Shown here one piece after another: positions 1,705-61,766 of a stretch of DNA of 64,000 nt. A model generated the notes under the pieces. It was not told the origin of the DNA and did no database searches. It was given only the letters and a program-made list of their open reading frames with translations. Positions within the stretch are counted from its first letter, which is position 1, and each line of letters begins with the position of its first letter. The translations under genes and the position numbers were made by a program. This DNA comes from Candidatus Poribacteria bacterium (lineage in GTDB: Bacteria > Poribacteria > WGA-4E > WGA-3G): positions 930,001-994,000 of the forward strand of contig OY282386.1 of assembly GCA_958295945.1 (NCBI GenBank), written 5' to 3'.

Positions 1705-1727
1705 TTCTACAGGTTATGTTGAAATAG

Positions 1728-1759
1728 AAATAGGGTGGCAAACTGTCACCCTATTTTTT
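1728..1759. terminator. Bidirectional intrinsic terminator
   Basis: A perfect 10-bp stem, AAATAGGGTG (1728-1737) with CACCCTATTT (1747-1756), closes a 9-base loop and runs into a T-tract at 1754-1759. It lies between the convergent TonB-family and HEAT-repeat genes and overlaps the stop codon of the latter. The T-rich sequence on the other side suggests it can serve both strands. Confidence 0.85.
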
Positions 1760-2396: not shown

Positions 2397-2554
2397 ATTA
2401 CCTCTATAGCAGGTGAATTGTTGGTATTATAGCAGTAGCATTGAACCATTGCAAGTTGTTAAGTCTATAGCAAACGAAGTAGAATCGGACTAACCTAAGT
2501 TGATCGCAAGGACAAATAAACGTAAATTAAATATGAAGAATTGGAAGACCATCG

Positions 2555-3748: not shown

Positions 3749-3795
3749 GTATATTCTCCATTCACTATCTTGGTAATCTTATGTCTGTGAAAATG

Positions 3796-4806
3796 TTACT
3801 TCTTCATCAATGATTTGGCACGTAGGTTTGGACGTTCTAATACAGATGGGTTTACAATTGTATCTGGTAGTTCTCCAGTTAACACTTGTAGCACACATGT
3901 TGCAGCTGTTATTTCTAATTCATGAATTGATTCATCTGATATGAAAGCAGCATGCGGTGTGATTATGACATTATCAAGTTGCAGAAGCGATTCACCTAAA
4001 TCTGGTGGTTCGGTTTCCAAAACATCTAACCCTGCACCAGCAATTTCACCATTTTTGAGTGCTTCGGTGAGTGCCGATGAATGGACAATGCCTCCTCGTG
4101 CTGCATTGATTAGAAACGCTGTGCTTTTCATAGCACGAAACGCGTCATGACTAAACATGTGTTGTGTTTCTGCAGTTAACGGAGCATGTATTGAGACAAA
4201 ATCAGATGTTTTGAGAAGTTCATCAAACGTAACTTTATCAGCCTTGTATTGTTTAATAATCTCGGCAGATGTCCGCGGAGAATAGACATTAACCTTCAAT
4301 CCTAATGCAAGTACTTTCGGTATTAGTGCTTTTGTTATACGTCCAAATCCTATGACACCTACTGTTTTTCCACGCAGACGATACATTTGATGACCAATAT
4401 TTTGATCCCAAGTGCCATTCTTGACAGCAATATTGTATAGCGGTATGTTTCTGGCACAAGCAAGAAGTAGTGCAATTGCATGGTCAGAGACTTCATCTAC
4501 ACAATAGGCAGGCACATTCGTCACGATAATGCCATGCTCTGTAGCCGATTCAACATCAATGTTATCCAAACCAATACCGTATCGTCCTATGATTTTGCAC
4601 TTTTTTGCATCAGCAATGACGCGTGCACTAACAGGTTTCCAACATGTTAGAATACCATCAACCTTGGGGGCATAAGTCAATAGTTCTTCTTCATCGCCAG
4701 TTTCCGCGATGATTAATGCTGTTCCGATTTCGGCAAGCACTTGTCGCTCAGGTTCAATGGACGGCCACGCGTAATCGGTAATAAGTACTCTGAAATTATT
4801 TTGCAT
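3796..4806 (-). CDS. D-2-hydroxyacid dehydrogenase (SerA / C-terminal binding type)
   Basis: 336 residues. NAD-dependent D-isomer 2-hydroxyacid dehydrogenase. Visible: substrate-domain segment YGIGLDNIDVESATEHGI; nucleotide-binding GKTVGVIGFGRITKALIPK; the Arg-containing INAARGGIVHSSALTEAL; and the catalytic His in IITPHAAFISDES. It lacks the C-terminal ACT/regulatory domain of long SerA proteins, so it need not be phosphoglycerate dehydrogenase; a glycolate, glyoxylate or phosphonate-related substrate is equally possible. It sits between a GlcD-like oxidase and trpB in a run with gaps under 50 bases. The pairing with a GlcD-like protein suggests 2-hydroxyacid metabolism. No clear Shine-Dalgarno. 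Confidence 0.85.
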   Translation of the reverse strand: MQNNFRVLITDYAWPSIEPERQVLAEIGTALIIAETGDEEELLTYAPKVDGILTCWKPVSARVIADAKKCKIIGRYGIGLDNIDVESATEHGIIVTNVPAYCVDEVSDHAIALLLACARNIPLYNIAVKNGTWDQNIGHQMYRLRGKTVGVIGFGRITKALIPKVLALGLKVNVYSPRTSAEIIKQYKADKVTFDELLKTSDFVSIHAPLTAETQHMFSHDAFRAMKSTAFLINAARGGIVHSSALTEALKNGEIAGAGLDVLETEPPDLGESLLQLDNVIITPHAAFISDESIHELEITAATCVLQVLTGELPDTIVNPSVLERPNLRAKSLMKK

Positions 4807-4852
4807 ATTCTATTACATGTAATCACGATTAGAAATCGTTATCTATCCTACA

Positions 4853-6235
4853 TCAGACGAACACTTTTCCCGGATTCATTATATTCTGTGGGTCCAAGGC
4901 ATGTTTGATTGCACGCATTACCTCAACAGAGTTACCATGTTCTTTTACTAAGGCTGCCCGTTTGCCAATTCCGATACCGTGTTCACCGGTACTTGTTCCC
5001 TCCAACTCTAACGCTATGTCTACAATCTGTTCGCTTATTTTCCGTGCATCTTCCAATTCTTTTTTGTTTCCGGGTTCAAGTGGAAAAACAACATGGAAGT
5101 TCCCATCACCAACGTGCCCCAGCATCGTCGCAAGGAGATATGTGTTGGCAAGAAGTGTTTTAGTTCTTGCGATACACTCAGCCAGATGAGAGATTGGCAC
5201 ACATACATCAGTGACATATCCAACAGAACCGGGACGCAGATTCAGTGCAGCATAGTAACAATTATAACGTGCTTGCCAAAGTTTTTTCCTTTCATTTTCA
5301 TCTGTTGCCCAACGAAAATCAGAGCCACCATGTTGTGATGCAATCTCTCCAGCAATCTTTGAGTTTTCTGATACGGTATTCTCAGATCCGTGAAATTCAA
5401 AGAAAAGCGTTGGTGCAACCTCATACTCCAAATTTGAATACTTATTGACTGCATCCATCTGAAGTTCATCTAAAAGCTCAATACGAGCGATACTTATACC
5501 GGCATCCATTACTTTGATGACGGTATTGATCGCTGCATCTATAGTTGGAAAAGCACAAACAGCAGCTGCAACTGCTTCCGGCAAAAGTGCTAAATTGACA
5601 GTTATCTCCGTAATAATACCTAATGTCCCTTCCGAACCGATGTATAGACGGGTAAGATCATATCCTGCAGCGGATTTACGTGCTCTCCCACCTGTATGAA
5701 TGACTGTGCCATCCGCAGTAATCACGACTAATCCAAGCGTGTTTTCCAACATAGTTCCGTATTGGACAGCACTTGTACCGGATGCACGTGTCGCAACCAT
5801 GCCACCTAATGAGGCATCGGCACCCGGGTCTACTGGAAAATGGAGTTTTGTTCCAAGATTTATAAGATGTTCATTCAATTGTCCACGAGTTACGCCTGCT
5901 TGTACAGTAGCATCTCTATCCGTTTCATTCACCCTGATAATACTGTTCATTTCTCTTAATGATATGCATACTGTGCCATCACTCGCAACCACTGCACCTT
6001 CCACACCTGTCCCAGTTCCATAAGGTATAATCGGTATGTTGTATTTACTACAGATTTTGACTATTTCGGAGACTTCCGTATTTGTTTGTGGAAAGGTAAC
6101 TGCCTCGGGAAGTGATCCATGATGATATGACGCATCACTTGCATGCGCTTCCCTGACATCCTTTTCTGTGCTGATACGTGTTCCTAATAGCGAACAGAGT
6201 TCTCTATAATATTGGGGTGATTTCTGGTCATTCAT
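4853..6235 (-). CDS. FAD-linked 2-hydroxyacid oxidase, GlcD / D-lactate dehydrogenase type
   Basis: About 460 residues. PCMH-type FAD-binding domain with IIPYGTGTGVEGAVVASDG and LGGMVATRASGTSAVQYG, then an FAD-oxidase C-terminal domain with YVTDVCVPISHL, MLGHVGDGNFHVVFP, GTSTGEHGIGIGK and the usual ending DPQNIMNPGKVFV. Family role: oxidation of glycolate or D-lactate, often with GlcE/GlcF subunits that are not present here. An ATG at 6253 is in frame but lies inside the terminal inverted repeat of the adjacent IS. Removing the IS leaves the ATG at 6235 (protein MNDQKSPQYY...) as the ancestral start, so I use that. The insertion has probably cut the gene from its native promoter. Confidence 0.85.
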   Translation of the reverse strand: MNDQKSPQYYRELCSLLGTRISTEKDVREAHASDASYHHGSLPEAVTFPQTNTEVSEIVKICSKYNIPIIPYGTGTGVEGAVVASDGTVCISLREMNSIIRVNETDRDATVQAGVTRGQLNEHLINLGTKLHFPVDPGADASLGGMVATRASGTSAVQYGTMLENTLGLVVITADGTVIHTGGRARKSAAGYDLTRLYIGSEGTLGIITEITVNLALLPEAVAAAVCAFPTIDAAINTVIKVMDAGISIARIELLDELQMDAVNKYSNLEYEVAPTLFFEFHGSENTVSENSKIAGEIASQHGGSDFRWATDENERKKLWQARYNCYYAALNLRPGSVGYVTDVCVPISHLAECIARTKTLLANTYLLATMLGHVGDGNFHVVFPLEPGNKKELEDARKISEQIVDIALELEGTSTGEHGIGIGKRAALVKEHGNSVEVMRAIKHALDPQNIMNPGKVFV

Positions 6236-6262
6236 GCTATGTGTATTAGACATTATAATGAA

Positions 6263-6868
6263 TTAAATAGTAGGAGTTTCATAACACCAGGGTCTGAAGT
6301 TTAGTCGAAAATTGTGTAAACCACAACAAGTTTCCATAACTAAGTCACAAAACCCTTTCTTCCAATTTCTGAGTTTATCTTTGACAATACGGTATCTTTT
6401 GACACCACTAATGGCATGTTCAACACGTATGCGTATAGACGCTATCTTTCTATTGATTTCTTTTTCTTTTTCTCTCAGTTCTCCACCTTTCGGTTTTTTC
6501 TTCGGTTGAACGATGTGGACATCAGGAAGAGTGAACCCCTGAAAACCGGTATCTTGATACAAGGTGCTTCCCGGGGGCACACAATAGCCAACCTGATCAG
6601 CTATGTATTTGTCATGGTGTCTTCCTTCAAAAGAGGGTGTCAATAGGACGACTTTGCAGCTTTCATTGATAATCAGATTATTTTTTACTGTATGACATTT
6701 CTTTTTACCGCTATAATATGCCTTTTGAGTTTCTGGGTCTCTTGGACGTCGTATTCGCCGTTCTATACCATCATGAAAAAAAATATTCTTTATCTTGACT
6801 TTGACTTGATACCTCACAAGTATCACACGTAGATGTGGGAACTGTTTCCCGAGATGGCAGCTCTCCAA
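6263..6868 (-). CDS. IS427-like transposase, second frame (DDE catalytic part)
   Basis: Continues the transposase of the preceding frame. It holds the DDE nuclease: first Asp in FFHDGIERRIRRPRDPETQ, second Asp in LYQDTGFQGF, and Glu in IRVEHAISGVKRYRIVKDK. The coding end is only 14 bases from the left tip of the element. The first residues of the open frame are out-of-frame sequence of the first part, so translation is expected through the shift at the eight-T run rather than from an independent start. Confidence 0.8.
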   Translation of the reverse strand: MESCHLGKQFPHLRVILVRYQVKVKIKNIFFHDGIERRIRRPRDPETQKAYYSGKKKCHTVKNNLIINESCKVVLLTPSFEGRHHDKYIADQVGYCVPPGSTLYQDTGFQGFTLPDVHIVQPKKKPKGGELREKEKEINRKIASIRIRVEHAISGVKRYRIVKDKLRNWKKGFCDLVMETCCGLHNFRLNFRPWCYETPTI

Positions 6869-7211
6869 GTTCTGCTAATGCGGTGTTCAATATCGGTAAA
6901 AGCAAGTGAATCCATTTATTCGCAAGAGGTTGAGCCATACCAAAGAGCGTGCCGAATAGAACCTGTTTCGGAGCTTCATGAAGATAAATTAATATAAATA
7001 GCAACATATCTTCATGTGAAGCAAAACAACTATTTTTGTAGGGTTTATATCTCCGTTTTATGCGCGGTTTTCCATCAAGGGTCCGTGTTTCCATATAAGC
7101 TAAAAAACATTTAGAAAAATGAGGTAATAGTTTTGTAAACTCTTCTAAAGTATATCCAGTGAGAGATAGAAGCGTCCCAGCTTTGTCCTTAATATCTTCA
7201 AAAACGATCAT
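6771..7211 (-). CDS. IS427-like transposase, first frame (HTH part)
   Basis: 146 residues. A helix-turn-helix Tnp_4 type N-terminal region includes TGYTLEEFTKLLPHFSKCF and HEDMLLFILIYLHEAPKQV. The frame ends about 20 residues after the point where the second frame takes over. GGAGG stands 7-8 bases before the ATG at 7211. The overlap with the second frame contains a run of eight T on the coding strand (+ strand 6776-6783). Joining the frames there needs a +1 (or -2) shift, by ribosomal frameshifting or transcriptional slippage; alternatively the element is inactivated by a one-base indel. Confidence 0.8.
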   Translation of the reverse strand: MIVFEDIKDKAGTLLSLTGYTLEEFTKLLPHFSKCFLAYMETRTLDGKPRIKRRYKPYKNSCFASHEDMLLFILIYLHEAPKQVLFGTLFGMAQPLANKWIHLLLPILNTALAELGELPSRETVPTSTCDTCEVSSQSQDKEYFFS

Positions 7212-7335
7212 GAGAAAACCTCCATTTATAAGATTGTAATTAGAATAACAGAGGTTAACTAAACTTGCAACTAAATCATTATAATGTCTATTTTAGCATG
7301 ATTGGTGTGATTTGGCAAGGAAAAGAGGGATACGT

Positions 7336-7666
7336 GGGTGTGTGGAGTTTTTGGTACTAACTTCCTACCACCCATTGTAGTGCGGGGTCTCCGTGCCCCG
7401 CCATCTTTCAATCTACCAACAACTGCGGGTAACGGAGACCCGGGGAATCATGGCAAATACCAAACGCGTATTCGTCTAAGCGCATTCATAACCGGGGAAC
7501 GCCAAAAGGCGTTCATACCGTTGATTTCTTGATTTGGCGCTTTGTAAGCGCGCTGGACTTTGATCTCAAATTACGCTATTTATTTCTTAATCCTCATCAG
7601 GCGTTCATACCGTTGATTTGTACTACAATGGTTAATGTGAAATTTTGCCAAAGACTTTACACACCC
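7336..7666. mobile_element. Miniature inverted-repeat element, type A, copy 1
   Basis: Flanked by inverted termini: GGGTGTGTGGAGTTTTTGG at 7336 and the complement of GGGTGTGTAAAGTCTTTGGC ending at 7666. The same termini bound elements at 11844-12018 and 23288-24664. There is no transposase. The interior (331 bp in total) is a mosaic of short hairpin repeats: a GCGGGG...CCCCGC palindrome near 7382-7403 and two copies of the module GGCGTTCATACCGTTGATTT (7508-7527, 7600-7619). No target duplication is visible, so the copy is probably old. The rest of 7289-7770 shows no gene. Confidence 0.6.
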
Positions 7667-7770: not shown

Positions 7771-8898
7771 CTAACTTCTGAACAGGTCAAGATACTTTTC
7801 AAGAACAAACAGACGACCTTGAGTGTGTCCTCTGATTTGAGTGAGTATCCCCATTTCTACCAGAGATTTAAGCAGTCGATTCGCACTTGAAAAACTTATT
7901 TCTAAGACTTTTTCGACGGACCTCACACTTAGTATTGGAGTCATATACATCTGTTGAAGTAATTTTTGTGCATTTTTCGTACGAGCACCAAGAGTTAAAA
8001 TCTTTCTCTCATATTCCTCACGGAGGATGATAATAGATTTGTAGGTCTCTATCCCATCTTGTGCACTCTCTACCAATACATTTAAGAAAAAGATAATCCA
8101 CTGTTCCAAGTCACTGTCTGTCCGAACTTTAGTTAGAGAATCATAATATGTACTTCTATGTTTCTCAAAAAATGTGGACATATAAATGTTAGGTTTACTC
8201 AAGATGTTTGCATCAATAAGCTGCAACACAATCAATAACCTTCCACATCTACCATTTCCATCCAAAAAAGGATGAATCGTTTCAAATTGATAATGACTAA
8301 TTGCTATTTTAATGAGATCAGGCAGTTGTAATGATTTGTTATGCCAGAATTTCTCCAAATCGCTTAAAAGGTCTGGAACTTCTTCAGGTGAAGGTGGAAC
8401 AAAAATTGCATCAGAAAGCGAAGATCCACCGATCCAATTTTGACTTCTCCGAATTTCTCCTGGTGCTTTATGTTTACCACGCACACCTGACATCAATATC
8501 TTATGTACTTCCTTTAAAAGTCGTATTGACAATGGTAATTTGGGTAATCTGGAAATTGCATAGTTCATTGCATCAATGTAATTTTGGACTTCTTGCCAAT
8601 CGTCACGTCGCTCAGGATTAATCTCCGCAACTTGTAATAAAGTTTCATCAAGTTCAGTTTTAGTTCCTTCAATTTGATTGGAGTAAGTTGCTTCTTTTGC
8701 AATGTTCATTGGAATGAAAAAATCTACATCTTGACGAATTGTTGTATAGGCATTTAACTCACCTAACAGTTTTGCCCCCTGTTCTATTAATACATCTATC
8801 TCTGGATTTACCCATGCAATTTGACGATTAACAAATGAGGGTGTGAAACTCCTATATTCTTGTTGTTCTCTGTAATTTCCAGCTGTATATTTATTCAT
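7771..8898 (-). CDS. Fic-domain protein with C-terminal winged-helix region
   Basis: About 375 residues. The Fic core motif reads HPFLDGNGRCGR (about residues 209-220), matching HPFx(D/E)GN(G/K)R. The family transfers AMP or another nucleotide moiety to target hydroxyls. The N-terminal inhibitory motif (S/T)xxxE(G/N) is present as SNQIEG about 130 residues before the Fic motif, which marks a class II, self-inhibited Fic protein. The C-terminal 60 residues (MYMTPILSVRSVEKVLEISFSSANRLL...) look like a DNA-binding winged helix, so the protein may bind its own promoter. A TTG at 8901 is followed at once by ATG at 8898, which I take as the start. Three operator-like palindromes lie just upstream. 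Confidence 0.88.
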   Translation of the reverse strand: MNKYTAGNYREQQEYRSFTPSFVNRQIAWVNPEIDVLIEQGAKLLGELNAYTTIRQDVDFFIPMNIAKEATYSNQIEGTKTELDETLLQVAEINPERRDDWQEVQNYIDAMNYAISRLPKLPLSIRLLKEVHKILMSGVRGKHKAPGEIRRSQNWIGGSSLSDAIFVPPSPEEVPDLLSDLEKFWHNKSLQLPDLIKIAISHYQFETIHPFLDGNGRCGRLLIVLQLIDANILSKPNIYMSTFFEKHRSTYYDSLTKVRTDSDLEQWIIFFLNVLVESAQDGIETYKSIIILREEYERKILTLGARTKNAQKLLQQMYMTPILSVRSVEKVLEISFSSANRLLKSLVEMGILTQIRGHTQGRLFVLEKYLDLFRS

Positions 8899-12092: not shown

Positions 12093-13235
12093 ATGGAAAT
12101 TACTGCAATCAAAACCTTCATAGCAAACTTTGGCAACCGTTCAAGAGGACTCATCAAAGTAGAAACTGATGAGGAAATACATGGATGGGGTGAAGCCTAT
12201 TCTACCGGACCGGATCTCTCTGTTGAACCCATTGCAAACTATATCTTTGAAATGATTCAAGGGGATGATCCGCGTAGAATAGAATATATCATGCTAAAAC
12301 TCCATCAGCAATTCAGATTTCCTCCCGGTGGTGCAGGTTTATCAGTCATCTCTGCGATTGACCATGCGCTTTGGGACATCAGTGGGAAAGCCGCAGGCTT
12401 ACCAGTCTATATGCTTCTCGGTGGGCATGCACGAGACCGTATCAGAGTATATCGGGGTATTGGTGGAAGAGATGGTATTGAAGCCGCCGATCAAGCACGA
12501 AAACTCAATGAAGATTGGGGATTCACAGCATTCAAAACAAGTCCATATCAACTTAATCCTGATGCGGATCGGTGGGGAAGAGTCTGTGATGCAGCTGCTA
12601 CATATTTTGAACAAATTAGATTGGATACACCTGATGATTGGGAGTTCGCGTTTGACCCACATGCTAAAATCTTTGAACCGATACGCGCACTTCAATTGGC
12701 AAATGCACTTGCTCCCTATGACCCATATTTCTATGAAGAACCCCTACGTCCAGAACATATTCCAGCTTGGTCACGACTTCGTTCACAGATGCAAGTGCCG
12801 TTAGCAACAGGAGAATCCTTATATACTCGGTTTGAATTTCTTGATATAATCGCTGCACAAGGCGCAGACATCATACAACCTGATATTTGTGTCTGTGGAG
12901 GGTTATTAGAGATGCGAAAGATCGCAGCGATTGCAGAAGCACACTATGTTAGCATTGCTCCGCACAACCCCATGGGTCCTCTGGCAACAGCAGTGAATGT
13001 TCACTTCGCTGCTGCAACACCAAACTTCAAAATCCTTGAATATCTTCTGCCAACCGATAGTGCTTGGAATTCTTGGGTTGACGAACCGTATATGCCAACG
13101 GACGGTTATTTGGAATTACGGGATCGTCCTGGTCTCGGTGTTGAAATAAACGAAGATGCAGTAACTGACAACGAATATGCACATTGGCAAAGAACCTGTC
13201 CAATCCGTCCAGATGGATCTACAGGTTACATCTAA
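12093..13235 (+). CDS. Enolase-superfamily sugar-acid dehydratase, galactonate-dehydratase-like
   Basis: 380 residues from the ATG at 12093, which has AAGG 9 bases upstream; the longer open frame runs into the adjacent miniature element and is not real. Mandelate racemase / muconate lactonising fold. Visible active-site pattern: DPH (Asp188, His190), YEEP (Glu215), GES (Glu241) and APHNPMGPLA (His291). The spacing of the metal ligands and the His pair matches D-galactonate dehydratase (DgoD), which removes water from an aldonic acid to give a 2-keto-3-deoxy acid. The exact sugar acid is uncertain. Family assignment is firm, the substrate is inference. It is followed by a repeat-filled gap and a Gfo/Idh/MocA gene. 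Confidence 0.88.
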   Translation: MEITAIKTFIANFGNRSRGLIKVETDEEIHGWGEAYSTGPDLSVEPIANYIFEMIQGDDPRRIEYIMLKLHQQFRFPPGGAGLSVISAIDHALWDISGKAAGLPVYMLLGGHARDRIRVYRGIGGRDGIEAADQARKLNEDWGFTAFKTSPYQLNPDADRWGRVCDAAATYFEQIRLDTPDDWEFAFDPHAKIFEPIRALQLANALAPYDPYFYEEPLRPEHIPAWSRLRSQMQVPLATGESLYTRFEFLDIIAAQGADIIQPDICVCGGLLEMRKIAAIAEAHYVSIAPHNPMGPLATAVNVHFAAATPNFKILEYLLPTDSAWNSWVDEPYMPTDGYLELRDRPGLGVEINEDAVTDNEYAHWQRTCPIRPDGSTGYI

Positions 13236-35487: not shown

Positions 35488-38400
35488 TTATTTCCGTATC
35501 AACATCTTGCGTGTGGCGGTGAAATCCCCCGCATTGAACGTGTAAAAATACAAACCGCTTGCAACAGGTTCACCTACACTGTTTCTACCATCCCAATATG
35601 CCGCCCGGTTCTGACTTTGATAGATACCTGCTGCCTGATGTCCTAACGTTAATGTCCGAACAACCGTACCGTTTGCTGTATAGATAGTCAAGGTAACATC
35701 CGCAGACTTCGCAAGGTTATACGGTATCCACGTCTCTGGATTGAATGGGTTTGGATAGTTTGCAAGGAGTGCTGTCTTTTCAGGAATCAGCGATGCTAAT
35801 AGTCGTTGGAGATTTTCTATCCCTTGTTGGAAAGCGATTGATCCATCATCTGCGACCTGTGCTTGATCTATCCATGTTTGTATCATTGCTGGTGTTAGAT
35901 TGTCGCTGTCTACTACAAGTGTAGCAGGTGCAGCGGAATCTGTTGTCTCACCCATGTGTTGTGCTACAATAATAAGGTCTTGAATGTTGATAACACCATC
36001 GCGATTTACATCCGTTCGCAAGTTAGCAGGCGCATCTGAACCTAAGTCGTTCGCCACAAGCACAAGGTCTATGATACTCACCCGTCCATCCTGATTCACA
36101 TCCCAAGCAGGATAGTCTCCGACAGTGATGGTAATATCTGGCGGAACAGTAGGAATGATTGCGCCACTGATAGAACTGAACTCAAAGTTTTCCAGTGTCA
36201 CTTGTGTTTCGCCTGCTGCTTTTGCCTTGAACGTCACCGACAGTAGTGTGCCTGTACCGCTAACACCGCTTTCAGCTATCCGCGCCGAATACAAACTTGT
36301 GATTTTACCCGCTGCGTTATCAATCGTGCCAGCTTGGAAGTACGTATCTCCCCCTTCTGCTTTCAGGAAATCACCTTCGGTGACTTCAACGGCTTCAAGC
36401 ACATTCGGGTCAAAGGTAATATCTGCCTGCCAACCTGCTAAATCAGTGATGTTTTCCGCGTTGAGGTTCAGTGTAATCATATCCTCAGCGAGTAGGTTTG
36501 TCTCCGTTGCTGAAAACGAGAAGCCGACGCCAGGAGGAATAACCGTATACTCTGTGTCTTCTTCAAATCCGAAAAAGAGAGACCATAGATCGTAATGTGC
36601 TTTGAACCCGTCAAGCCTTACCAGCAATACATTTTTCCCTTTTTGTAACGTGACAGGAAAAAATGTTCGGTAACCAACATTGTGTGCTCCAAAGGCATAG
36701 TCTGTATAGTCTTGATGTACTAATTTGCCATTTAGATAGACTTTCTGCCCCTCACTAGCCCCTATAAATATTTTCGTCTGCTGTGTTCTCGGTGCAAGTA
36801 AAATCATAGAACTGTAGACAACGAAATGCTGTCCGTAGATATTGGGTGTGATAGCGTCTTGAGAGTCTAATAATCTTCTAAGATTCGTCTTATTGGCATT
36901 GGAGTCATTCGAATGGTAAGGCTCAAGCATCCCGACTGACCATGCACTGTTTCCTATCACAGTGCCCTCTGAAGCACCGAGAGTAGCAACCTGTATTTCT
37001 GTAGATTTATTGTTGGATGCTGTTGCTAAATAATCGACATCTTTGTCTACTCTTCCGGGCAAAGTCAACCATAGCCAAGGCCCCTCAATATTTGGACCGC
37101 CTTGTGGAAAGGCAGGGTTACCAAACCAAGTGAATACTTCTATAGTCTCGCGTATGCCAGCCAAGGGGGAGAGATCAGAGATGTTATTGTTGTGAAGTTG
37201 TAAATTTTTCAAGTTACGCAGAGAAGCAAGGGGTGAAACATCTACGATTCGGTTTTCATTGAGTATCAACGTTTCTAAGTTAACTAACCCGGCTAACGGA
37301 GTAAGATCCGAAATCTCCGTATCGGATAGGTCAAGATGCCTCAATTCTGTTAATCCCGACAAGGGTGAGAAATCTGATATGTGATCAGTATGCGTAAGCC
37401 CCAACCATCTAAGATTTGTTAAGCCTTTTAAGGGGGAAATGTCGGTTGCTTGGCAGTCATATAAGTACAATCTTGTTAAGTTTGTTAATCCTGCCAAAGG
37501 TGAGAGATCGGAAATATCAGAATGTACAGTATCTAGCTTTTTCAGATTTTTCAATCCTGCCAACGGCGCGAGATTTGATATACGGGTGTGATCGGCATCT
37601 ATTTCTTCAAGATTGAGCAAGGACGCGAGGGGTGAAAGATCGGTTACTTCAGTGTTATCAAATTTTATTTGGCGCAATTTTGTCAAAGAAGCAATCGGTG
37701 AAATGTCTGATAAAGGGTTGTGAGCAATAGATAATTCTGTTAGATTCTTTGCAAACGCAATGCCAGTTAAATCTTTAATCTCCTTGTCGCTTGCCCTTAG
37801 GGTTGTTAATGTTGCCATTTCTTCACGCGTAATTGGATCAGAATCAGAGTCCTCCTTACCGAGTGCCTCAGCAATTACAGCACGTAGGTTTGGGTCTGGG
37901 ATAATACGAGGAGGTAGTACCGTGTATTCTGTGTCTTCTGCGAATCCAAAAAAGCCGCTCCAGTTTCCTCCTATGTTATCAATTGCAACCAGTAACAAAT
38001 TCACCCCTTCATTTAAGGTTGTGGGGATAGTATGTTGATAATTGATAGCATTAGGATCCCAACGAGCACCAATCCTTTTATGTACTAACTGTCCGTTGAA
38101 CCAGACTTTGACATTATCATCTGCTCCTACAAATATCCTTGTCTGCTGTTCGCGTGGGGAATTCAATTTGATAGAACCATAGATAATATAACCAACTGTC
38201 TCTTCACCAGTTGTCCAACCGAGAGCGTTTGTCATCTCACTAATATTATTTTCCCCTGACGGTGTAATCCGATGAGCAGTCCATGTACTATTTCCAACAG
38301 ATTCACCCTCTACTGCACCATAAGTAGCAATCTGTAGTTCGGTGACTGTACCACTACTTACTTGTGAAAGGAAATCTTTACTGCTCTCAAGTTCTGGTCC

Positions 38401-40983
38401 TGACACCAATGCCCATAACCAAGGACCTTCTATTTTCGGACCACCGACAGGAAAACCCGGATTCTCATACCAAATTATATTTGGATCTTCTGGTAACCCC
38501 TCCACGTGTGAAATGTCTGAGATGTTGTTAAATGCAAGATCTATCCAAACCAAGCCATGCAGAGATGTCAGAGCGGAAACATCTGAAATTTTGTTCCCGT
38601 GTAGATTTAAACGTTTCAAATTCCGCAAAGATGCTAGTGGGGAAATATCCGATATTTCATTATTGTCAAACAACTCTAATTCCTCTAAATTAACCAATCC
38701 TGCCAGCGGTGAAATACTTGTTATTCCACTACGTCCAACAGATAGTTTTTTCAATTCCACTAATCCTTTTAATGGTTCAAGACTTGGACCCTCAGCGTAG
38801 AAAATTTCTAACTTTTCCAAATTTTCCAACTCTGCAAGTGGTAACAAATCTGATACTGGTGCGTGATTAAAGTACAACCTTTTCATTTTTGTAAGATCCA
38901 TGAGGGGAGATAAATCAGATACATCAGTTGAAAATAAGACAAGGTCCTCTATGTTTATTAATTCCGCAATTGGCGATAAGTCGGTTATAGATTTACCAGA
39001 GACATTAAGACGTTTAAGGTTTGTTAATCCAGCAAGAGGTGATAAATCGGATAATAAACCATCAAAAGACCATCTAACAACGAAGGATTCCAGGTTGGTT
39101 GCTAACTGAAGTCCGGTCAGATTTTGGATACTTGCTTCCACTGAGTTAAGGTGAATCAGCGACTCCATTTCTTCAACTGTAATCACATCACCAGCTGCTT
39201 TACCAAGTGCTTCTTCAATTGCAGCACGAAGGTTCGCATCGGGAATGTAAACACCAGTACCAGGAATATTTTCTGGTCGTTCCACAACGGGTGGTAGGCT
39301 CGTATCAGGAGAGTTGATCTTAGAAATCACATCGTGAAAAGATGATGTCCATGCGTCTCGTTTGATGGCACCGTTTTCTACCACCAATGCCCCTAATAAG
39401 TTTTGTAAACTGACATTCTGCCTAATTTTCTCAAGGAAAGCGTCGGTTTCTAATCCAACGGCAGCCGCAGCGTGTGCAGCATTAAGCGTCCCTTGAAACA
39501 CCTCATGGAATCGTTGTATCGGTTCAATACCACCAAATACACCGCCTGCCGTTTCAAGTGCTATTCTGTAACGTTGCGTATCCTCGTCAACGAGGTCATC
39601 CATTACCGTCTTTTCTACATAGAGGTCTAACGCACGCGCCTTGTTAAAAGGTGGGTTATCAGCTTGTTCAACGGCAGCACGCACTTCGTCTTCAAACGTC
39701 TTCATTCCTTGCGTATGGCAGCCGATACAGGACAGACCATTTCGCACAGCAGGATCACTTGCAGCAGGATTAGAAACGATCTCTGTCGGTGCAACATCCA
39801 GCCGATTACCTATTGCATCTACCAGATAATATGCTTGAAGTCCGTTTGGCAGATTAAAGATAATTTCACCACCGTCATGTGTGAAATCAAGCGGATGTGA
39901 AAAGATATTCTGGGATTCCGCACTGCCAGCGAAATCGTAGCTTTTCCAGTATGCCCCATGTTGAGAGGTATGGCGTTCAACAACGCGGTTATGTCTTGAA
40001 ACGCCGGAGTCGTTGAAACCCGCACGCCAGACGCGTTTCCCTGGTGCATTTTGAAGATTGTCTGCAACGTATACATCGAGATTTTCTTCTAATTTTCGGT
40101 CTGTTTCGGGTAATGCAAGAATGTCATGATAGAGCGGTGGCAACGATGCAGTTGCAAGAAACCAATCTACATGGACAAACGGCACTTCGCAGCTCATCTC
40201 TTGCTGTAAAGTTGTCAGTTTTTCGCGCAGATGTGTTTGTGTAGGGGCATCAAACGTTATTTGGTAAGGATATACTTGCTCAATCTGTGCCCACGCATCG
40301 TTTCGGACATCCCACTCGTAGTCGCGTAGGTCAATGTAGAAGATCGTTTCTTTTGGATCAATAGGCTGCGGTTTGATAACTTCGCGTCCCCAAGAGAGAC
40401 TATTTATCAGTTTGGAGAGCGCGCGCCGATAAGCGTTTAGTGCCTCGGTTGTTTCCCCTGCGTTATAGAGATGTGTCAAGGTAAAATAGCGTGCGAACGA
40501 TTTGTCACTTGACGATAGAGAATTGACGTGTTTTTCAATCGTTTCAAGCATAGTATCGGTTGTTATGAAGTCTATATCTTGACGTGACGCGGCATTCCAA
40601 TCAGGTGCACCTGCTTTTATCCATTGCCATATCGTCTCAATCGCTGCGGGATCAAGTGGTGGTTGTCCTTGCGGCATCCGTTTTGCAGAATCTGTTTCAA
40701 TGAGTCGCTGATAGAATACGGAATCGTCTGGATCACCGGGAATGATTTTTTTGTCATCAACGAGTGCTGCGTGATCAATGATGAGTGCCTCTGTATAGGC
40801 ACCGTTTTCTCCGTGACATACCAGACAGGATTGTTCTATGATTGCATAAGCTTCTTGTGCCAGATTCTGTTGTCCATCAAGTCTGTTAACAAAAATGAAG
40901 GCTAATAGGCAACTGATAAGTATAAAATAACTCTGGTATTTCAACTGATTTCTCCCTGAGTATAATTTTTGTGGGGCTCTCAT
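35488..40983 (-). CDS. Giant secreted protein: cytochrome c-like motifs, LRRs, cohesin, dockerin, C-terminal sorting-like domain
   Basis: 1831 residues. Signal anchor at about 18-34; haem motif CLVCH (53-57) in a planctomycete-cytochrome-like segment ending in PPLDPAAIETIWQWIKAGA; a second haem motif CIGCH (419-423); two internalin-like leucine-rich repeat blocks (about 575-840 and 1025-1275, cores like LSPLAGLTNLKRL), each followed by a jelly-roll-like segment (KVWFNGQLVHKR; KVYLNGKLVHQD). Then a cohesin-like domain (about 1485-1620), a dockerin with two calcium loops (DVNQDGRVSIIDL, DVNRDGVINIQDL), and a C-terminal domain (YPNPFNPETWIPYNL ... FTATRKMLIRK) resembling FlgD-like/sorting domains. 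Cohesin and dockerin in one chain suggest self-assembly. Confidence 0.85.
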   Translation of the reverse strand: MRAPQKLYSGRNQLKYQSYFILISCLLAFIFVNRLDGQQNLAQEAYAIIEQSCLVCHGENGAYTEALIIDHAALVDDKKIIPGDPDDSVFYQRLIETDSAKRMPQGQPPLDPAAIETIWQWIKAGAPDWNAASRQDIDFITTDTMLETIEKHVNSLSSSDKSFARYFTLTHLYNAGETTEALNAYRRALSKLINSLSWGREVIKPQPIDPKETIFYIDLRDYEWDVRNDAWAQIEQVYPYQITFDAPTQTHLREKLTTLQQEMSCEVPFVHVDWFLATASLPPLYHDILALPETDRKLEENLDVYVADNLQNAPGKRVWRAGFNDSGVSRHNRVVERHTSQHGAYWKSYDFAGSAESQNIFSHPLDFTHDGGEIIFNLPNGLQAYYLVDAIGNRLDVAPTEIVSNPAASDPAVRNGLSCIGCHTQGMKTFEDEVRAAVEQADNPPFNKARALDLYVEKTVMDDLVDEDTQRYRIALETAGGVFGGIEPIQRFHEVFQGTLNAAHAAAAVGLETDAFLEKIRQNVSLQNLLGALVVENGAIKRDAWTSSFHDVISKINSPDTSLPPVVERPENIPGTGVYIPDANLRAAIEEALGKAAGDVITVEEMESLIHLNSVEASIQNLTGLQLATNLESFVVRWSFDGLLSDLSPLAGLTNLKRLNVSGKSITDLSPIAELINIEDLVLFSTDVSDLSPLMDLTKMKRLYFNHAPVSDLLPLAELENLEKLEIFYAEGPSLEPLKGLVELKKLSVGRSGITSISPLAGLVNLEELELFDNNEISDISPLASLRNLKRLNLHGNKISDVSALTSLHGLVWIDLAFNNISDISHVEGLPEDPNIIWYENPGFPVGGPKIEGPWLWALVSGPELESSKDFLSQVSSGTVTELQIATYGAVEGESVGNSTWTAHRITPSGENNISEMTNALGWTTGEETVGYIIYGSIKLNSPREQQTRIFVGADDNVKVWFNGQLVHKRIGARWDPNAINYQHTIPTTLNEGVNLLLVAIDNIGGNWSGFFGFAEDTEYTVLPPRIIPDPNLRAVIAEALGKEDSDSDPITREEMATLTTLRASDKEIKDLTGIAFAKNLTELSIAHNPLSDISPIASLTKLRQIKFDNTEVTDLSPLASLLNLEEIDADHTRISNLAPLAGLKNLKKLDTVHSDISDLSPLAGLTNLTRLYLYDCQATDISPLKGLTNLRWLGLTHTDHISDFSPLSGLTELRHLDLSDTEISDLTPLAGLVNLETLILNENRIVDVSPLASLRNLKNLQLHNNNISDLSPLAGIRETIEVFTWFGNPAFPQGGPNIEGPWLWLTLPGRVDKDVDYLATASNNKSTEIQVATLGASEGTVIGNSAWSVGMLEPYHSNDSNANKTNLRRLLDSQDAITPNIYGQHFVVYSSMILLAPRTQQTKIFIGASEGQKVYLNGKLVHQDYTDYAFGAHNVGYRTFFPVTLQKGKNVLLVRLDGFKAHYDLWSLFFGFEEDTEYTVIPPGVGFSFSATETNLLAEDMITLNLNAENITDLAGWQADITFDPNVLEAVEVTEGDFLKAEGGDTYFQAGTIDNAAGKITSLYSARIAESGVSGTGTLLSVTFKAKAAGETQVTLENFEFSSISGAIIPTVPPDITITVGDYPAWDVNQDGRVSIIDLVLVANDLGSDAPANLRTDVNRDGVINIQDLIIVAQHMGETTDSAAPATLVVDSDNLTPAMIQTWIDQAQVADDGSIAFQQGIENLQRLLASLIPEKTALLANYPNPFNPETWIPYNLAKSADVTLTIYTANGTVVRTLTLGHQAAGIYQSQNRAAYWDGRNSVGEPVASGLYFYTFNAGDFTATRKMLIRK

Positions 40984-57057: not shown

Positions 57058-58251
57058 TTAGAACATTAATTCTGTTTCCACTGCTTCATCATAATCAACA
57101 CCCTCGACCTCAAATCCAAAGAGGTTACGAAAACGTCTTCTGTAGCCAGCATAATCAGAGAGTTCATGGAAATTGTCAGTATTAATTTTATCCCACCGTT
57201 CAGTAACCGCATTGGTCACATCCTGCCGCAATTCTCTGTCATCCAAACGAATGTAACGATCACTATCCAGTTGCGGTTGTAAGCCAGGACCGAGATGTTC
57301 AGAGAATAACCGCTGCATCTGTCCAATAGGTGCCTCATTGATACCTTTTGCATTCATAATATCATATAGTATACTGATATAAAGCGGGACAACAGGAATC
57401 GCTGCAGACGCTTGTGTTACAACTGCTTTGTTCACAGAAATATATGCATTACCGCCGAATTGATTTGCTAGTTGTTCATCAAGAGCATCAACACGTGCTT
57501 TCAAATCATCTTTCGCCTTGCCGATGGTGCCGTCTCGGTAAATAGACCAAGTTAATGCACTGCCGATATAGGTATACGCAACAACCTTTACTTCTGAGGC
57601 AAGCAATTCTGCATCTGCTAAAGCAGTAATCCACATCTCCAAGTCTTCGCCACCCATCACTGCGATTGTGTCGGAAATTTCTTTATCGTTTGCGGGTTCA
57701 ATCGTTACTGGCACGACGATTTCGTTGTTCAGGTCAATGGTCTTACCAGTATACGGTTCACCAATAGGTTTTAGTTCAGAATTATGCGTTTCACCTGTGC
57801 GAGGATGGGTTCGGCGCGGGGCAGCGATGCTATACACAAGTATATCTACTTTACCGAAATTTGCTTTGAGTTGGTCAATAGCTTCCTGCTTCACCTCATC
57901 AGAAAATGCATCTCCGTTGATGCTTTTAGCAGAAAAACCATCTTTTTGTGCTTGTTGATGAAATGCGACGGTATTGTAATAACCAGCAGATGCAGTACGT
58001 CGTTCATCTGCAGGACGTTCATAGAGAAGTCCTAACGTCTTCGCGCCGTCTCCCCACGTCAATGCAATGCGAGAAGCGAGTCCATAACCCGTTGAAGCAC
58101 CAACGACAAGAGCGTTCAAACCGGTGTCTTTATGAGTAGTGTTCTCTTTTATGAATCCTATCTGGTTTTGAACATTCGCTAGACACCCAGCAGGATGTGC
58201 ATTCGTACAGATAAAACCACGTATCCGTGGTTTAACAATTTGAACTGCCAT
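57058..58251 (-). CDS. fabV: Enoyl-ACP (trans-2-enoyl-CoA) reductase FabV
   Basis: 397 residues, the usual FabV length. NADH-dependent reduction in the last step of fatty-acid elongation. Rossmann segment ALVVGASTGYGLASRIAL with the long FabV-type spacing, GLLYERPADERRTASAGYYN, DILVYSIAAPRRTHPRTG, and the catalytic Tyr-x8-Lys in YIGSALTWSIYRDGTIGKAK-type sequence; C-terminal FEVEGVDYDEAVETEL. FabV is a triclosan-insensitive alternative to FabI. AAGGA precedes the ATG. Separated by only 21 bases from the RidA gene upstream, so likely co-transcribed. Confidence 0.95.
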   Translation of the reverse strand: MAVQIVKPRIRGFICTNAHPAGCLANVQNQIGFIKENTTHKDTGLNALVVGASTGYGLASRIALTWGDGAKTLGLLYERPADERRTASAGYYNTVAFHQQAQKDGFSAKSINGDAFSDEVKQEAIDQLKANFGKVDILVYSIAAPRRTHPRTGETHNSELKPIGEPYTGKTIDLNNEIVVPVTIEPANDKEISDTIAVMGGEDLEMWITALADAELLASEVKVVAYTYIGSALTWSIYRDGTIGKAKDDLKARVDALDEQLANQFGGNAYISVNKAVVTQASAAIPVVPLYISILYDIMNAKGINEAPIGQMQRLFSEHLGPGLQPQLDSDRYIRLDDRELRQDVTNAVTERWDKINTDNFHELSDYAGYRRRFRNLFGFEVEGVDYDEAVETELMF

Positions 58252-58272
58252 TATATCCTTCTTTTTTAAAGG

Positions 58273-58734
58273 TTAGTCTTCAATTTCTACGACCATCTCA
58301 ACTTCAACAGGAATCCCGCCGGGTAATTGCACCATACCGACTGCAGAACGCGCATGTTTGCCTTTATCACCGAATACTTCTACAAGCAGATCTGATACAC
58401 CATTGACAACAGCAGGTTGATCCGTGAAATCTGCTGATGAGTTGACAAAACCGACAACCTTCACTACACGTTTAATCCGATCCAGATCGTCTAATGCATG
58501 TTTGAGTGTGCTTATCAATCCGAGTCCAACTTGACGGGCAGATTCATATCCCTCTTCAATAGTGGCATCTGTTCCGAGTTGACTTTTATATATTTTCCCT
58601 TCACCTGTGCCGGGTCCGTGTCCGGAAGTAAAGATCAGATTTCCTGTTTGAACTGTGGTAACATAATTGGCTACGGGTATAGCAGGCTCGGGTAATTCTA
58701 TCCCTAATTCTTCAAGCCGTTTCTCTATTTTCAT
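58273..58734 (-). CDS. RidA / YjgF-family protein
   Basis: 153 residues. Typical trimeric enamine/imine deaminase family: GNLIFTSGHGPGTGEGKIY at the front, VKVVGFVNSSADFTDQPAVVNGVS in the middle and HARSAVGMVQLPGGIPVEVEMVVEI at the end, with the conserved Arg before SAVGM and the final Glu. It protects PLP enzymes from reactive enamines or has a related deaminase role. About 20 residues longer at the N-terminus than E. coli RidA. Located directly upstream of fabV on the same strand. Confidence 0.9.
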   Translation of the reverse strand: MKIEKRLEELGIELPEPAIPVANYVTTVQTGNLIFTSGHGPGTGEGKIYKSQLGTDATIEEGYESARQVGLGLISTLKHALDDLDRIKRVVKVVGFVNSSADFTDQPAVVNGVSDLLVEVFGDKGKHARSAVGMVQLPGGIPVEVEMVVEIED

Positions 58735-59028
58735 GTAATATCATATCTCCCAAATAGGTTTATAAATTAATATTCTGCAAATAGGAAAATTTGCAGTAAC
58801 TTGTATTATTAAATAGGTTTTAAGTGATTTTGTCAAGGGAATTAATGTTGTTAAGGTTTTCAATATGCATTGAATTTCTACTGATAATGTGATATAATTT
58901 CATTTATAATTCTGGTGAATCTAATTTGTGTATCAACTTTTAATCAAATCCTTTTGGTGTTGTATTTCAAGAAATTGTTTAGTAAACTAAAATGAAAACG
59001 TAAATCCACAATAGGAAAGATACAGATT

Positions 59029-59148
59029 ACACAACGACTGATCAAAGTGATGGAAATTCCACCGCATCTCACCTATGATTACGTTGAAGCACGCCTTAAA
59101 CCGATTTTAACAATCGTAGGTTGTGAGGTAAATACGGAATCACTTTAG
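59029..59148 (+). pseudogene. Remnant of an antitoxin-type gene
   Basis: One frame reads QRLIKVMEIPPHLTYDYVEA before a stop at 59146-59148. This matches QRLIKAMEKPPHLTDEDIEA in the gene at 59534-59968, about 800 bases away, at 15 of 20 positions. There is no start or upstream part. It is a degenerate duplicate of the antitoxin-like C-terminal tail. The gap 58735-59187 contains nothing else I can identify. Confidence 0.6.
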
Positions 59149-59187
59149 TGTGAAGACAGAAATTGTGGACACAATACAACACTTTTC

Positions 59188-59531
59188 ATGAAAATACCTA
59201 ATGCTGAAAATGCAATTGTAGACATTCGCAAGTTACAGGATTATTGCCTTAATCCCAACCATAATAAAGGAAAACATAAAGCTCGTCTATTTTCCACCTT
59301 GTTAGGTATGAGTGCAAGTGATGCAGAAGAGTTGCGCAATATATTGTTAGAAGCAGTCAAGAATCAAGATGCACAATTGGCTGAAAAGAATGCTTATGGT
59401 CAGCGGTTTACGCTTGATTTCATACTGAATTGGCAGGAAAAAATGCGATGATTCGGAGTGGCTGGATTATTGAAACTAATTCTGACATTCCAAAATTGGC
59501 GACTGCGTTTCCATTGATACGTAAGGATTAA
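59188..59531 (+). pseudogene. DUF6883-like protein, split by a frameshift at an A6 run
   Basis: The first frame (59188-59451) encodes 87 residues: MKIPNAENAIVDIRKLQDYCL, NHNKGKHKARLFSTLLGMSA, AEELRNILLEAVKN, ending ILNWQEKMR. The ATG of a second short frame at 59448 overlaps its stop and encodes MIRSGWIIETNSDIPKLATA to a stop at 59531. The tail (R-S-G-W-I-I...D-I-P-K-L) is what the end of this family normally looks like, so an intact gene would run through. A -1 shift at the six-A run 59438-59443 would give one protein of about 117 residues. It is either a programmed shift or a broken gene. Directly upstream of the DUF4926 gene. Confidence 0.55.
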
Positions 59532-59533
59532 CT

Positions 59534-59968
59534 ATGAATAATAAACCTACCGACGACATTTCACGCGTAGATGACTTGTCTGAAAACAATCAAGAACATG
59601 CAGAAAATGCCGAAATCAAACTTCTAGATGTCGTTGCGCTTACTGAAGACCAACCTGAACATAATCTTAAGCGTGGAGAAGTCGGAACAGTCGTTGAAAT
59701 CCTATCCGATGGAGAAGCGTTTGAGGTAGAATTCAGTGATGACAACGGACAAATGTATAAGTGTAGTAGTTTCCTTGCGTCTCAAATCACATTGTTGAAA
59801 AATAATACGGTGAAAAAAAATCCCGCCGCACAACGTCTCATCAAAGCAATGGAAAAGCCACCACATCTCACTGATGAAGACATTGAAGCCCTGAATCAGT
59901 CAATAAAAGAGGGGAAGATACCTATAAAGTTTGATTCACCCTTTGATTCCAATGATAGCGAAAATTAA
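59534..59968 (+). CDS. DUF4926-type protein with antitoxin-like C-terminus
   Basis: 144 residues. Residues about 28-86 (IKLLDVVALTEDQPEHNLKR, GEVGTVVEILSDG, FEVEFSDDNGQMYKC) match DUF4926, a small SH3-like fold usually paired with a DUF6883 gene. The C-terminal 50 residues (AAQRLIKAMEKPPHLTDEDI, IKEGKIPIKFDSPFDSND) look like the tail of an antitoxin that precedes a PIN-domain gene. So the protein may be a hybrid of two modules. AAGGA is 6 bases before the ATG, two bases after the upstream stop. An ATG overlapping its stop opens a PIN-like remnant. Confidence 0.6.
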   Translation: MNNKPTDDISRVDDLSENNQEHAENAEIKLLDVVALTEDQPEHNLKRGEVGTVVEILSDGEAFEVEFSDDNGQMYKCSSFLASQITLLKNNTVKKNPAAQRLIKAMEKPPHLTDEDIEALNQSIKEGKIPIKFDSPFDSNDSEN

Positions 59969-60045
59969 TGAACAAATATCTGTTGGATACATCTTACGAA
60001 AGAATAACTGAATTGGGGTTACGTTTGGAAGACTGGAAGAATTAA
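59968..60045 (+). pseudogene. Possible remnant of a PIN-domain (VapC-like) toxin gene
   Basis: The ATG overlaps the stop codon of the preceding gene (TAATG). It reads MNKYLLDTS, the usual start of PIN-domain toxins (M.YLLDT.), but then continues as unrelated YERITELGLRLEDWKN and stops after 25 codons. Suggests that a toxin gene was deleted or replaced while the antitoxin-like tail stayed. The rest of the gap to 60290 shows no gene. Confidence 0.4.
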
Positions 60046-60253
60046 GAAGAGAGAATTAGAATATATATTGCCTTCCATTACTACTCAGTTTAAACTGCCT
60101 TGTTCCACACAGATTATATAGCAAGCGTTTTCCTGTACTATTTTTCACAAATTTTAACCAATGTTGATGTAGGTTAGGTTCCCAACCACACACATCACAA
60201 TATTCAACCATTGATCAAGTCCATTATATTTGCCCTCAATCCCCAATTTATCC

Positions 60254-60290: not shown

Positions 60291-61766
60291 ATGAAAAAAC
60301 AAGTTGGACAGGTTTTTACACCACTAAATTGGGCAAAATGGCTCATCAATAAATGGGGCATCTTTGATGCATGGATTGATGGTGCACATGTATGCGACCC
60401 GACTGCAGGACAAGGGATATTCGCTCTTGCCATGCTACATATAGCACGAAATAGAGGCATCCCTATCACATCAGAACGGCTATCCCGTATCACCCTCATT
60501 GAGATGATTCCCACACATCTTAAGCATTTCAAAAGAGAAGTCAGAAGAGAATTTAACATTGACTTTCCAGCCGCACAGGTTTTCTGTAAGGATATAATCA
60601 CCAAAAAGCATGATGAGAAATACGATATTCTTATAGGAAACCCTCCGTGGGCGAATTTCGGGGATTTACCCGCAGCTTACAAGAAAGTAATTAAACCTTT
60701 TTTCATTCAAGAGGGATTGGTCGACAATAAGCAACAGTTGCTCTTAGGTTCTTCTCGTGTTGATATGGCAGCATTAGTTTTGAAGGTTGTTGTGGGTAAA
60801 CTACTCAATCAGAACGGATTAGGATATTTCTATCTACCGACCTCTCTCTTTTTCGGTGAGAGTGCACATAGAGGATTTAGAAATTACAAGGCTGATTACC
60901 GACATTTTGCTATTGATAATGTTTATGAATTTTCAACGACTACGGTCTTTGAAGGTGTCAGCACATCATACTGTTGCGCAAGAATTCATGCCGATAAAAA
61001 ACAGAAATTCCCTGTTACATATTACAGAGAATCGGAAGGAAATTGGGTTGAATACAAAGCAGTACCATTTGAAAACCAAAACGCCCCGTGGCGGATCGTC
61101 CAAAATATAGATGAACTCAAGACAGATAATTCACTTGAAATCAGTTTAACTCCTGAACAAAAGCCGCGGCAAGGCGTGAATACATGCGGTGCGAATAATA
61201 TCTTTATTTATGAGCATAAACCATCACATCTACCAGAACATTTGCTATTTCCACTCGCAACAAAAGAGATATGGCGGCAAGACAAATCCTCACCACACAG
61301 ATGGATTATGTTACCCTACTGTCGGGAAACAGGAAAACCGCTTACACACGAGCAAATACAAAAGTATGATACATTGTGCAGTTATCTGCAAAATTTCAGG
61401 GATGTACTACGAGACAGGAAAGGGACAATGCTGCAAACGTTTATTAGTAGAGGGAATTGGTGGGCAATGCTTGGTGTTGGACCCTATTCGTTTGCACCAT
61501 TTAAAGTAATGTGGGAGGCGTATGGAAGAAACAAATTTAACCCCATGGTTTTGAGCAGTGTAGATGGACAGATGTGGCAGGGGAATCAAGCGATGCACGC
61601 CTTTATACCGTGTTGGTCTGAGGAAAACGCACACAAGATAAAAATTGCACTTGAGAACCCAGAAATACTAAAATTGTTACGCCAGCTTAATGGGGGAGGA
61701 AAATGCAACTGGGCACAACCCGGAAAGATAAAGAAATTGTTGTCGTTTTTAGAGATAGATGGGTAA
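60291..61766 (+). CDS. DNA adenine-type methyltransferase (N6, gamma-like), orphan
   Basis: 491 residues. QVFTP near the N-terminus, SAM-binding DPTAGQG (36-42), catalytic NPPW (117-120), and FYLPTSLFFGESAHRGFR downstream are marks of N6-adenine methyltransferases of the TaqI/type IIG kind. The C-terminal half (about 250-490) would be the target-recognition region and is rich in Trp and Arg (WWAMLGVGPYSFAPFKVMWE). No restriction nuclease is adjacent, although a PD-(D/E)XK protein lies 9 kb away. It follows a decayed toxin-antitoxin locus, so a defence-island remnant is plausible. Confidence 0.85.
   Translation: MKKQVGQVFTPLNWAKWLINKWGIFDAWIDGAHVCDPTAGQGIFALAMLHIARNRGIPITSERLSRITLIEMIPTHLKHFKREVRREFNIDFPAAQVFCKDIITKKHDEKYDILIGNPPWANFGDLPAAYKKVIKPFFIQEGLVDNKQQLLLGSSRVDMAALVLKVVVGKLLNQNGLGYFYLPTSLFFGESAHRGFRNYKADYRHFAIDNVYEFSTTTVFEGVSTSYCCARIHADKKQKFPVTYYRESEGNWVEYKAVPFENQNAPWRIVQNIDELKTDNSLEISLTPEQKPRQGVNTCGANNIFIYEHKPSHLPEHLLFPLATKEIWRQDKSSPHRWIMLPYCRETGKPLTHEQIQKYDTLCSYLQNFRDVLRDRKGTMLQTFISRGNWWAMLGVGPYSFAPFKVMWEAYGRNKFNPMVLSSVDGQMWQGNQAMHAFIPCWSEENAHKIKIALENPEILKLLRQLNGGGKCNWAQPGKIKKLLSFLEIDG

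Follow-up and report, generated by a model that had tools for sequence, protein, structure and literature searches.

Among the closest described systems are the type II VapBC toxin-antitoxin pairs, in which VapC is a PIN ribonuclease (PDB 6nkl and 3zvk; FitAB, 2h1c). The locus described here shares with them a PIN gene that overlaps the antitoxin stop codon and a PIN family that matches VapC in profile and structure searches, and versions composed of a small VapB, the tail discussed below, and a PIN protein exist in Poribacteria. However, in most intact loci with a strong tail match, the tail ends a STAND protein of 1,430 to 1,510 aa or other N-terminal domains, and in the window, the PIN has been deleted. 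A second comparison is with antiviral STAND (NLR-like) proteins carrying a Cap4 (DUF4297) nuclease (Avs/AVAST-like; Lamassu LmuA), with which the giant proteins of Poribacteria have in common a Cap4-like N terminus, a STAND NTPase, and TPR repeats, as well as homologues that stand alone on plasmids. The poribacterial giants differ in the addition of a VapB tail and a VapC gene and often of DUF4926 and DUF6883, whereas the window keeps neither nuclease nor NTPase. The third is the DUF6883-DUF4926 pair found in many phyla, which has the same gene order as the window; elsewhere, however, DUF4926 is short, free-standing, and tail-less, while in the window it is joined to the tail and follows a broken DUF6883 gene.

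The window is a 64,000-nucleotide stretch of a Poribacteria genome, referred to below as the own genome (G and L designate genomes and loci). We consider it very probable that the locus is the relic of an operon encoding DUF6883, a DUF4926-STAND-tail protein, and a VapC-type PIN protein, which has undergone two in-frame deletions and the loss of one base in DUF6883 (Table 1). The operon was NLR-like and probably immune. DUF6883 and DUF4926 are adjacent in that order, and PF21814 and PF16277 are both above the cutoff. On the upstream side lie genes for FabV and RidA, which also adjoin the intact operon in a genome of the same genus (G045; RidA orthologue, 92% identity) and a short form in a third genome of that genus (G042), where the PIN gene is missing at the same RidA-FabV site. 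The methylase-like gene at 60291 to 61766 is downstream of the relic and outside it; it is solitary and Eco57I/type IIG-like, with 491 aa versus about 1,100 aa in full type IIG profiles. A search for RNA families around the locus found none. Elsewhere in the window, positions 35488 to 40983 encode one 1,831-aa chain with leucine-rich repeats and cohesin, dockerin, and FlgD-like domains.

Table 1. Features of the relic locus and its neighbors (positions in the window)
Feature	Positions	Strand	Evidence
FabV (trans-2-enoyl-CoA reductase)	57058..58251	-	Pfam E 5.6e-103; upstream synteny marker
RidA/YjgF family protein	58273..58734	-	Pfam PF14588 8e-24; synteny marker
Decayed extra copy of the putative antitoxin tail, between RidA and DUF6883	59032..59092	+	blastn, tblastn, own-genome search
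DUF6883 gene, 5' part, early stop at frameshift	59188..59451	+	PF21814 E 1.1e-18, profile positions 1-82 of 110 only
A6 run at frame break	59438..59443	+	DNA alignment; one base fewer than intact relatives
DUF6883 3' remainder, -1 frame	59445..59531	+	Translation; tblastn segment q85-114, 80% identity
Hybrid 144-aa protein: N-terminal extension, DUF4926, and VapB-like tail	59534..59968	+	PF16277; alignment to ends of G045 giant
DUF4926 domain, residues 30-86	59621..59791	+	PF16277 E 2.3e-21; dN/dS 0.09
Junction of 4,098-bp in-frame deletion (relative to G045)	59785..59815	+	blastn blocks; length calculation
VapB-like putative antitoxin tail (KNPAAQRLIKAMEKPPHLTDEDIEALNQSIKEGKIPIKFDSPF...), residues ~95-144	59815..59965	+	Profile A1; precedes family PINs
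VapC-type PIN gene, 113 codons deleted in frame, junction 59993/59994	59968..60045	+	blastn vs G045 PIN
Eco57I-type adenine methylase-like protein, 491 aa	60291..61766	+	PF07669 1.4e-5; PADLOC IIG/MTase profiles

The RidA-FabV site of G045 holds one 1,504-codon open reading frame (ORF) that encodes DUF4926, a Cap4-like nuclease, a STAND NTPase, TPR repeats, and the tail, and it is directly followed by an intact 138-aa VapC-type PIN gene. By blastn, the FabV-RidA region of the window (57058 to 58843) corresponds to G045 positions 5641 to 7435 (82.6%), DUF4926 (59595 to 59785) to 8194 to 8384 (88%), the tail with the PIN start (59815 to 59993) to 12512 to 12690 (89%), and the PIN end (59994 to 60048) to 13030 to 13084 (84%). 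Because all of the window pieces match the intact G045 operon in the same order, at 84 to 89% DNA identity, chance is implausible. Compared with G045, the window has lost 4,098 bp (1,366 codons) that separate DUF4926 from the tail, and its PIN gene is shorter inside by 339 bp (113 codons, with the stop codon counted); both deletions are in frame. The stretch from 58843 to 59595, which includes DUF6883 and a tail remnant upstream of it, has no aligned counterpart at the G045 site, and this points to at least one further rearrangement. The 61-bp tail remnant, which matches the G045 tail with 84% DNA identity (E 1.5e-11; tblastn E 2e-4), is unexplained by the two-deletion history.

The second deletion left an ORF that reads MNKYLLDTSYERITELGLRLEDWKN followed by a stop codon, in which PIN residues 1 to 9 are joined in frame to the last 16 residues. 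These 16 residues match the C terminus of the PIN family both in tblastn (E 8e-5) and, at the DNA level, in blastn (83.6% over 55 bp, E 2e-9), and since they remain, the gene has been internally deleted rather than truncated. The original prediction, made from this DNA by itself, recognized the damage to the PIN gene but had it cut after nine residues. With the protein reduced from 138 to 25 aa, the catalytic core is gone, including E43, D102, D120, and D122 (alignment A3), all of which are kept in G045, in G058, and in a second locus of the own genome (L246). The overlap of MNKYLLDTS with the DUF4926 stop codon had been read correctly: the two share one base at 59968 (TAATG), and the tail thus lies directly upstream of the PIN start in the order typical of VapBC. 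A PIN gene is also present at homologous loci, as had been expected, with the intact gene of G045 as an example.

Giant ORFs such as that of G045 have 1,430 to 1,512 codons and encode a Cap4/DUF4297-like nuclease, a STAND NTPase, TPR repeats, and the tail. Domain scores are 1.3e-13 for PADLOC LmuA and 4e-7 for DUF4297, along with 6.6e-5 for Cap4 and 5e-4 for nSTAND3, the last two being under the curated Pfam cutoffs (23.6 versus 26.2 bits and 20.3 versus 27.2 bits, respectively). Their alignment contains an invariant ED...QVK, a Walker A sequence (GKTTLA), and a GHPxLVHA motif. For the first 633 residues, the structural model is of low quality (mean pLDDT, 48.5), with the NTPase core alone reaching 70 to 82; its two best fold matches are NbNRC2 and Sr35, both NLR resistosomes, and Apaf-1 is fifth. 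We therefore class the giant proteins as NLR-like. Searches for sequence relatives of the giant in the PDB and for phage records containing it found none. Homologues on proteobacterial plasmids stand alone and end before the tail (best, 26% identity over residues 11 to 1361), and for this reason, the tail and the PIN gene look like additions made in or near Poribacteria.

DUF4926 is located at the N terminus of seven giants, five of which have an intact DUF6883 gene directly upstream. In L239 (G058:C84:64964-71964; positions 1085 to 6401), an intact DUF6883 gene of 115 codons overlaps a giant ORF of 1,509 codons (DUF4926-Cap4-STAND-TPR-tail), which is followed by VapC; all of these ORFs are open and overlapping, which makes the locus a candidate for an immune operon that carries its own antitoxin. 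The own genome retains a complete STAND-tail ORF of 1,430 codons, which lacks DUF4926, together with an undamaged VapC gene (L246; C1:1217001-1225000), as well as an intact DUF6883-DUF4926 pair (L003). We found no earlier account of this complete arrangement, in which VapC lies next to a STAND protein whose end is a VapB tail, and no papers in the open-licence literature that combine STAND, antitoxin, and PIN in this manner; the function proposed below is read from genes.

The tail was searched for with profile A1 in 85 Poribacteria genomes and was matched in 57 of them. It is about 45 to 50 residues long, with the consensus KNPAAQRLIKAMEKPPHLTDEDIEALNQSIKEGEIPIKFDSPF, and it is found at the end of small VapB-like proteins (L160 and L161), an AF2212-like antitoxin domain (L031), DUF4926, the giants, and a HicB-like domain that was recognized by eye only (L034 and L152). 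A PIN gene often lies directly 3' of it, and all 39 near-full-length PINs of the family (matches with E<=1e-45 in the 85 genomes) have a tail immediately upstream, with none lacking it. The family is VapC-like (PF01850, 1e-14; NCBIfam VapC, 1.3e-13; PDB 6nkl VapC, 3.5e-7). On the basis of this linkage and gene order, the tail would be the toxin-binding part of a VapB-type antitoxin; the PDB contains no convincing relatives of it. The resemblance of the last 50 residues of a DUF4926-type gene to a VapB tail, noted in the original prediction, is borne out by PF16277 and by the position of the tail before all 39 PINs, and the occurrence of the tail before PIN genes independently of DUF4926 was found in the small VapB-like pairs. 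The same prediction would have failed if the tail were an ordinary part of DUF4926 proteins; this is ruled out beyond Poribacteria, where only 1 of 38 DUF4926-bearing genomes of other phyla had a match, in the form of separate small proteins, but the combination is common within Poribacteria. In the own genome, a second VapB-like tail (L005; C1:750997-754131) is followed by the beginning of another PIN gene (MEYLLETTCSLFM...), which departs from the family after about 14 residues. A DNA methylase gene repeatedly occurs directly after tail-PIN loci (L247:6579-8159 and, similarly, L241, L244, L246, L248, L253, and L254); its product (PF01555, 1e-33 in L247) begins with MPTLEF.GK..IY.H and is possibly a type III modification subunit.

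There are 19 short DUF4926-tail loci in the phylum, and the fusion in the window is thus not an isolated case. Those with longer linkers still have the first codons of the giant's nuclease (KVDFKRQGHEQVKG in L135, versus NADFKRQAHASIKG in the giant L242), and in a codon tree of DUF4926, giants and short forms are intermixed and are separate from bicistronic DUF4926. Together with the G045 alignment, these giant codons and the mixing in the tree lead us to conclude that the short forms derive from giants by in-frame internal deletion, which probably took place more than once. The original prediction had correctly attributed the hybrid to deletion, but it derived the halves from two different toxin-antitoxin modules. 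Direct joining of a neighboring DUF6883-DUF4926 pair and a VapB-PIN pair in the window strain would be in keeping with the intact tail-less DUF6883-DUF4926 pair of the own genome and with the existence of the small VapB-like pairs, yet we regard it as very unlikely, given that both halves are the ends of one 1,504-codon ORF at the orthologous site of G045, that some of the 19 short loci have a giant-derived linker, and that their DUF4926 groups with the giants rather than with bicistronic DUF4926. The reverse order of events, in which the short DUF4926-tail-PIN operon came first and later acquired the nuclease-STAND-TPR block as an in-frame insertion, could draw on the frequency of the short form and on one example that has an intact PIN gene (L016/G069). 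It is nonetheless highly improbable: genomes of other genera and families (G013, G021, and G029) encode STAND-tail ORFs that lack DUF4926, tail-less homologues are found alone on the proteobacterial plasmids, and long-linker short forms carry giant codons. The DUF4926-less ORFs and the tail-less plasmid homologues also indicate that the giant predates its fusion to DUF4926. Derivation from giants is therefore the history followed here; the deletion history is well supported, whereas how the intact operon works and what the surviving protein does are inferred.

The locus had been described as decaying, which is true of DUF6883 and PIN but does not extend to the hybrid ORF. The hybrid would be drifting debris like the rest if the breakage of both flanking genes and the additional tail fragment upstream were taken as representative of the whole locus, a reading that we consider unlikely. 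Its reading frame has stayed open both in the window and in 17 other short loci. Among five window-type short genes of equal linker length, dN/dS was 0.09 for DUF4926 and 0.13 for the tail, whereas the linker reached 0.73 and the N-terminal extension 0.46; these values cannot date each deletion exactly, and part of the divergence behind them may predate PIN loss. Furthermore, the window tail is identical to a PIN-linked tail (L030) over 43 residues despite nine synonymous changes. The hybrid protein thus has probably been kept under purifying selection. DUF6883, in turn, is frameshifted as had been described, with an A6 run and an ATG (59448 to 59450) overlapping the TGA stop codon (59449 to 59451), and its missing end, AMIRSGWIIETNSDIPKLATAFPLIRKD followed by a stop codon, is encoded in the -1 frame at 59445 to 59531. 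In the DNA alignment, one base is absent, the window having GGA-AAAAATGCGATGATT / GGA-AAAAATGCG where intact relatives have GGATAAACAAGCGACAATT / GGATAAACAAGCG. A homopolymer error in the assembly, with the gene intact in the cell, would account for a single-base loss at an A6 run and for a 3' remainder that is still conserved (6.5 to 10 nonsynonymous differences per ~63 sites, similar to the spread among intact relatives), but since 17 of the 18 other short loci either lack DUF6883 or carry a broken copy, a real break is to be expected, and we think such an error improbable. The A6 run, the ATGA overlap, and the conserved -1 frame remainder could also be taken as signs of a programmed -1 frameshift that expresses DUF6883, as had been offered in the original prediction. 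To this we attach very little probability: five intact relatives have no A run and need no shift, the GAA AAA ATG of the window is not a canonical X XXY YYZ heptamer, and the lesions at other short loci are different (a stop codon in L008, 5' loss in L016 and L011, and 18 aa left in L007). Because no slippery site is conserved in the alignment with relatives, the missing base is better explained by mutation or by a read error in the homopolymer than by a programmed shift. A 16-nucleotide direct repeat inside DUF6883 was judged to be due to chance.

DUF6883 is paired with DUF4926 in about 36 of 51 loci from many phyla and in almost every one of 30 DUF6883 loci taken from Poribacteria. A lone DUF4926 ORF with neither DUF6883 nor tail is also found in the own genome (L004; C1:48899-52117). 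DUF6883 is disrupted in many loci whose DUF4926 frame is still open, a pattern suggesting that DUF6883 may be the toxin-like member of the pair. Its model has a pLDDT of 96 and consists of three helices and a four-stranded sheet; compared with PDB folds, it had no match below 1e-3, and RelE-family proteins appeared only as weak matches. In the open-licence literature, we found no papers naming DUF6883 and a single one naming DUF4926. A testable toxin/antitoxin assignment is thereby available for DUF6883 and DUF4926, both of which are unstudied families.

What is lost and what is kept differ consistently between the two forms. PIN is intact in 12 of 15 giant-tail loci versus 1 of 19 short DUF4926-tail loci (Fisher P = 9e-6), and DUF6883 is intact in 5 of 7 DUF4926 giants versus 1 of 19 short forms (Fisher P = 0.002), although these tests are naive in that the loci come from related genomes and the counts are phylogenetically nonindependent. 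PIN has been damaged independently, with the tail left in frame, in L131 (where the tail runs into the final 14 residues of PIN), L135 (with the joint at TGAAT), L168, L008 (frameshift), and L130 (PIN cut after 12 residues). In G079, tail and PIN have been lost together. Loss of PIN with retention of the tail is the asymmetry predicted for a toxin-antitoxin pair. In the intact operon, the tail would bind and silence VapC, with its LTDEDIEALNQSI helix and IPIKFDSPF segment occupying the PIN active site, and the STAND protein would in this way be its own antitoxin. A mutation that removed the tail while PIN was intact would free the toxin, which would explain why the losses spare the tail and disarm PIN.

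The hybrid 144-aa protein would then be an orphan two-part antitoxin, which may still neutralize the undamaged VapC encoded in the other STAND operon of the own genome (L246) and, via DUF4926, perhaps also DUF6883. A wider proposal, which we put forward tentatively as a possibility that is somewhat less than even, is that the immune sensor serves as its own antitoxin, so that degradation, deletion, or activation of the STAND protein would free the RNase (as a guard or as a second effector) and cells would escape via a tiny DUF4926-tail orphan. The hybrid gene can be viewed as a readout of the dismantling of an immune operon, in which the middle of the giant and the core of the toxin have been removed and the antitoxin ends survive under selection. 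If a bacterial NLR-like protein does carry an antitoxin tail, loss of the immune gene would be tied directly to release of a toxin.

Work on combinatorial type II toxin-antitoxin networks reportedly emphasizes one antitoxin domain meeting many toxins. Those networks (PMC10440598) resemble the poribacterial loci in that antitoxin parts are mixed with different partners, but in Poribacteria, a single tail and a single toxin family are combined with many different N-terminal parts. The AF2212-like (COG2880) PIN-associated antitoxins (Makarova 2009, PMC2701414) have a parallel in L031, which fuses an AF2212-like domain to the tail before PIN, whereas the window has DUF4926 in the AF2212-like position. 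CreTA, a toxin-antitoxin system that guards CRISPR-Cas (PMC10097628), offers a similar idea, namely, that loss of an immune gene frees a toxin. However, CreTA relies on RNA and on transcriptional repression, while in the intact poribacterial operon, the antitoxin would be part of the immune protein.
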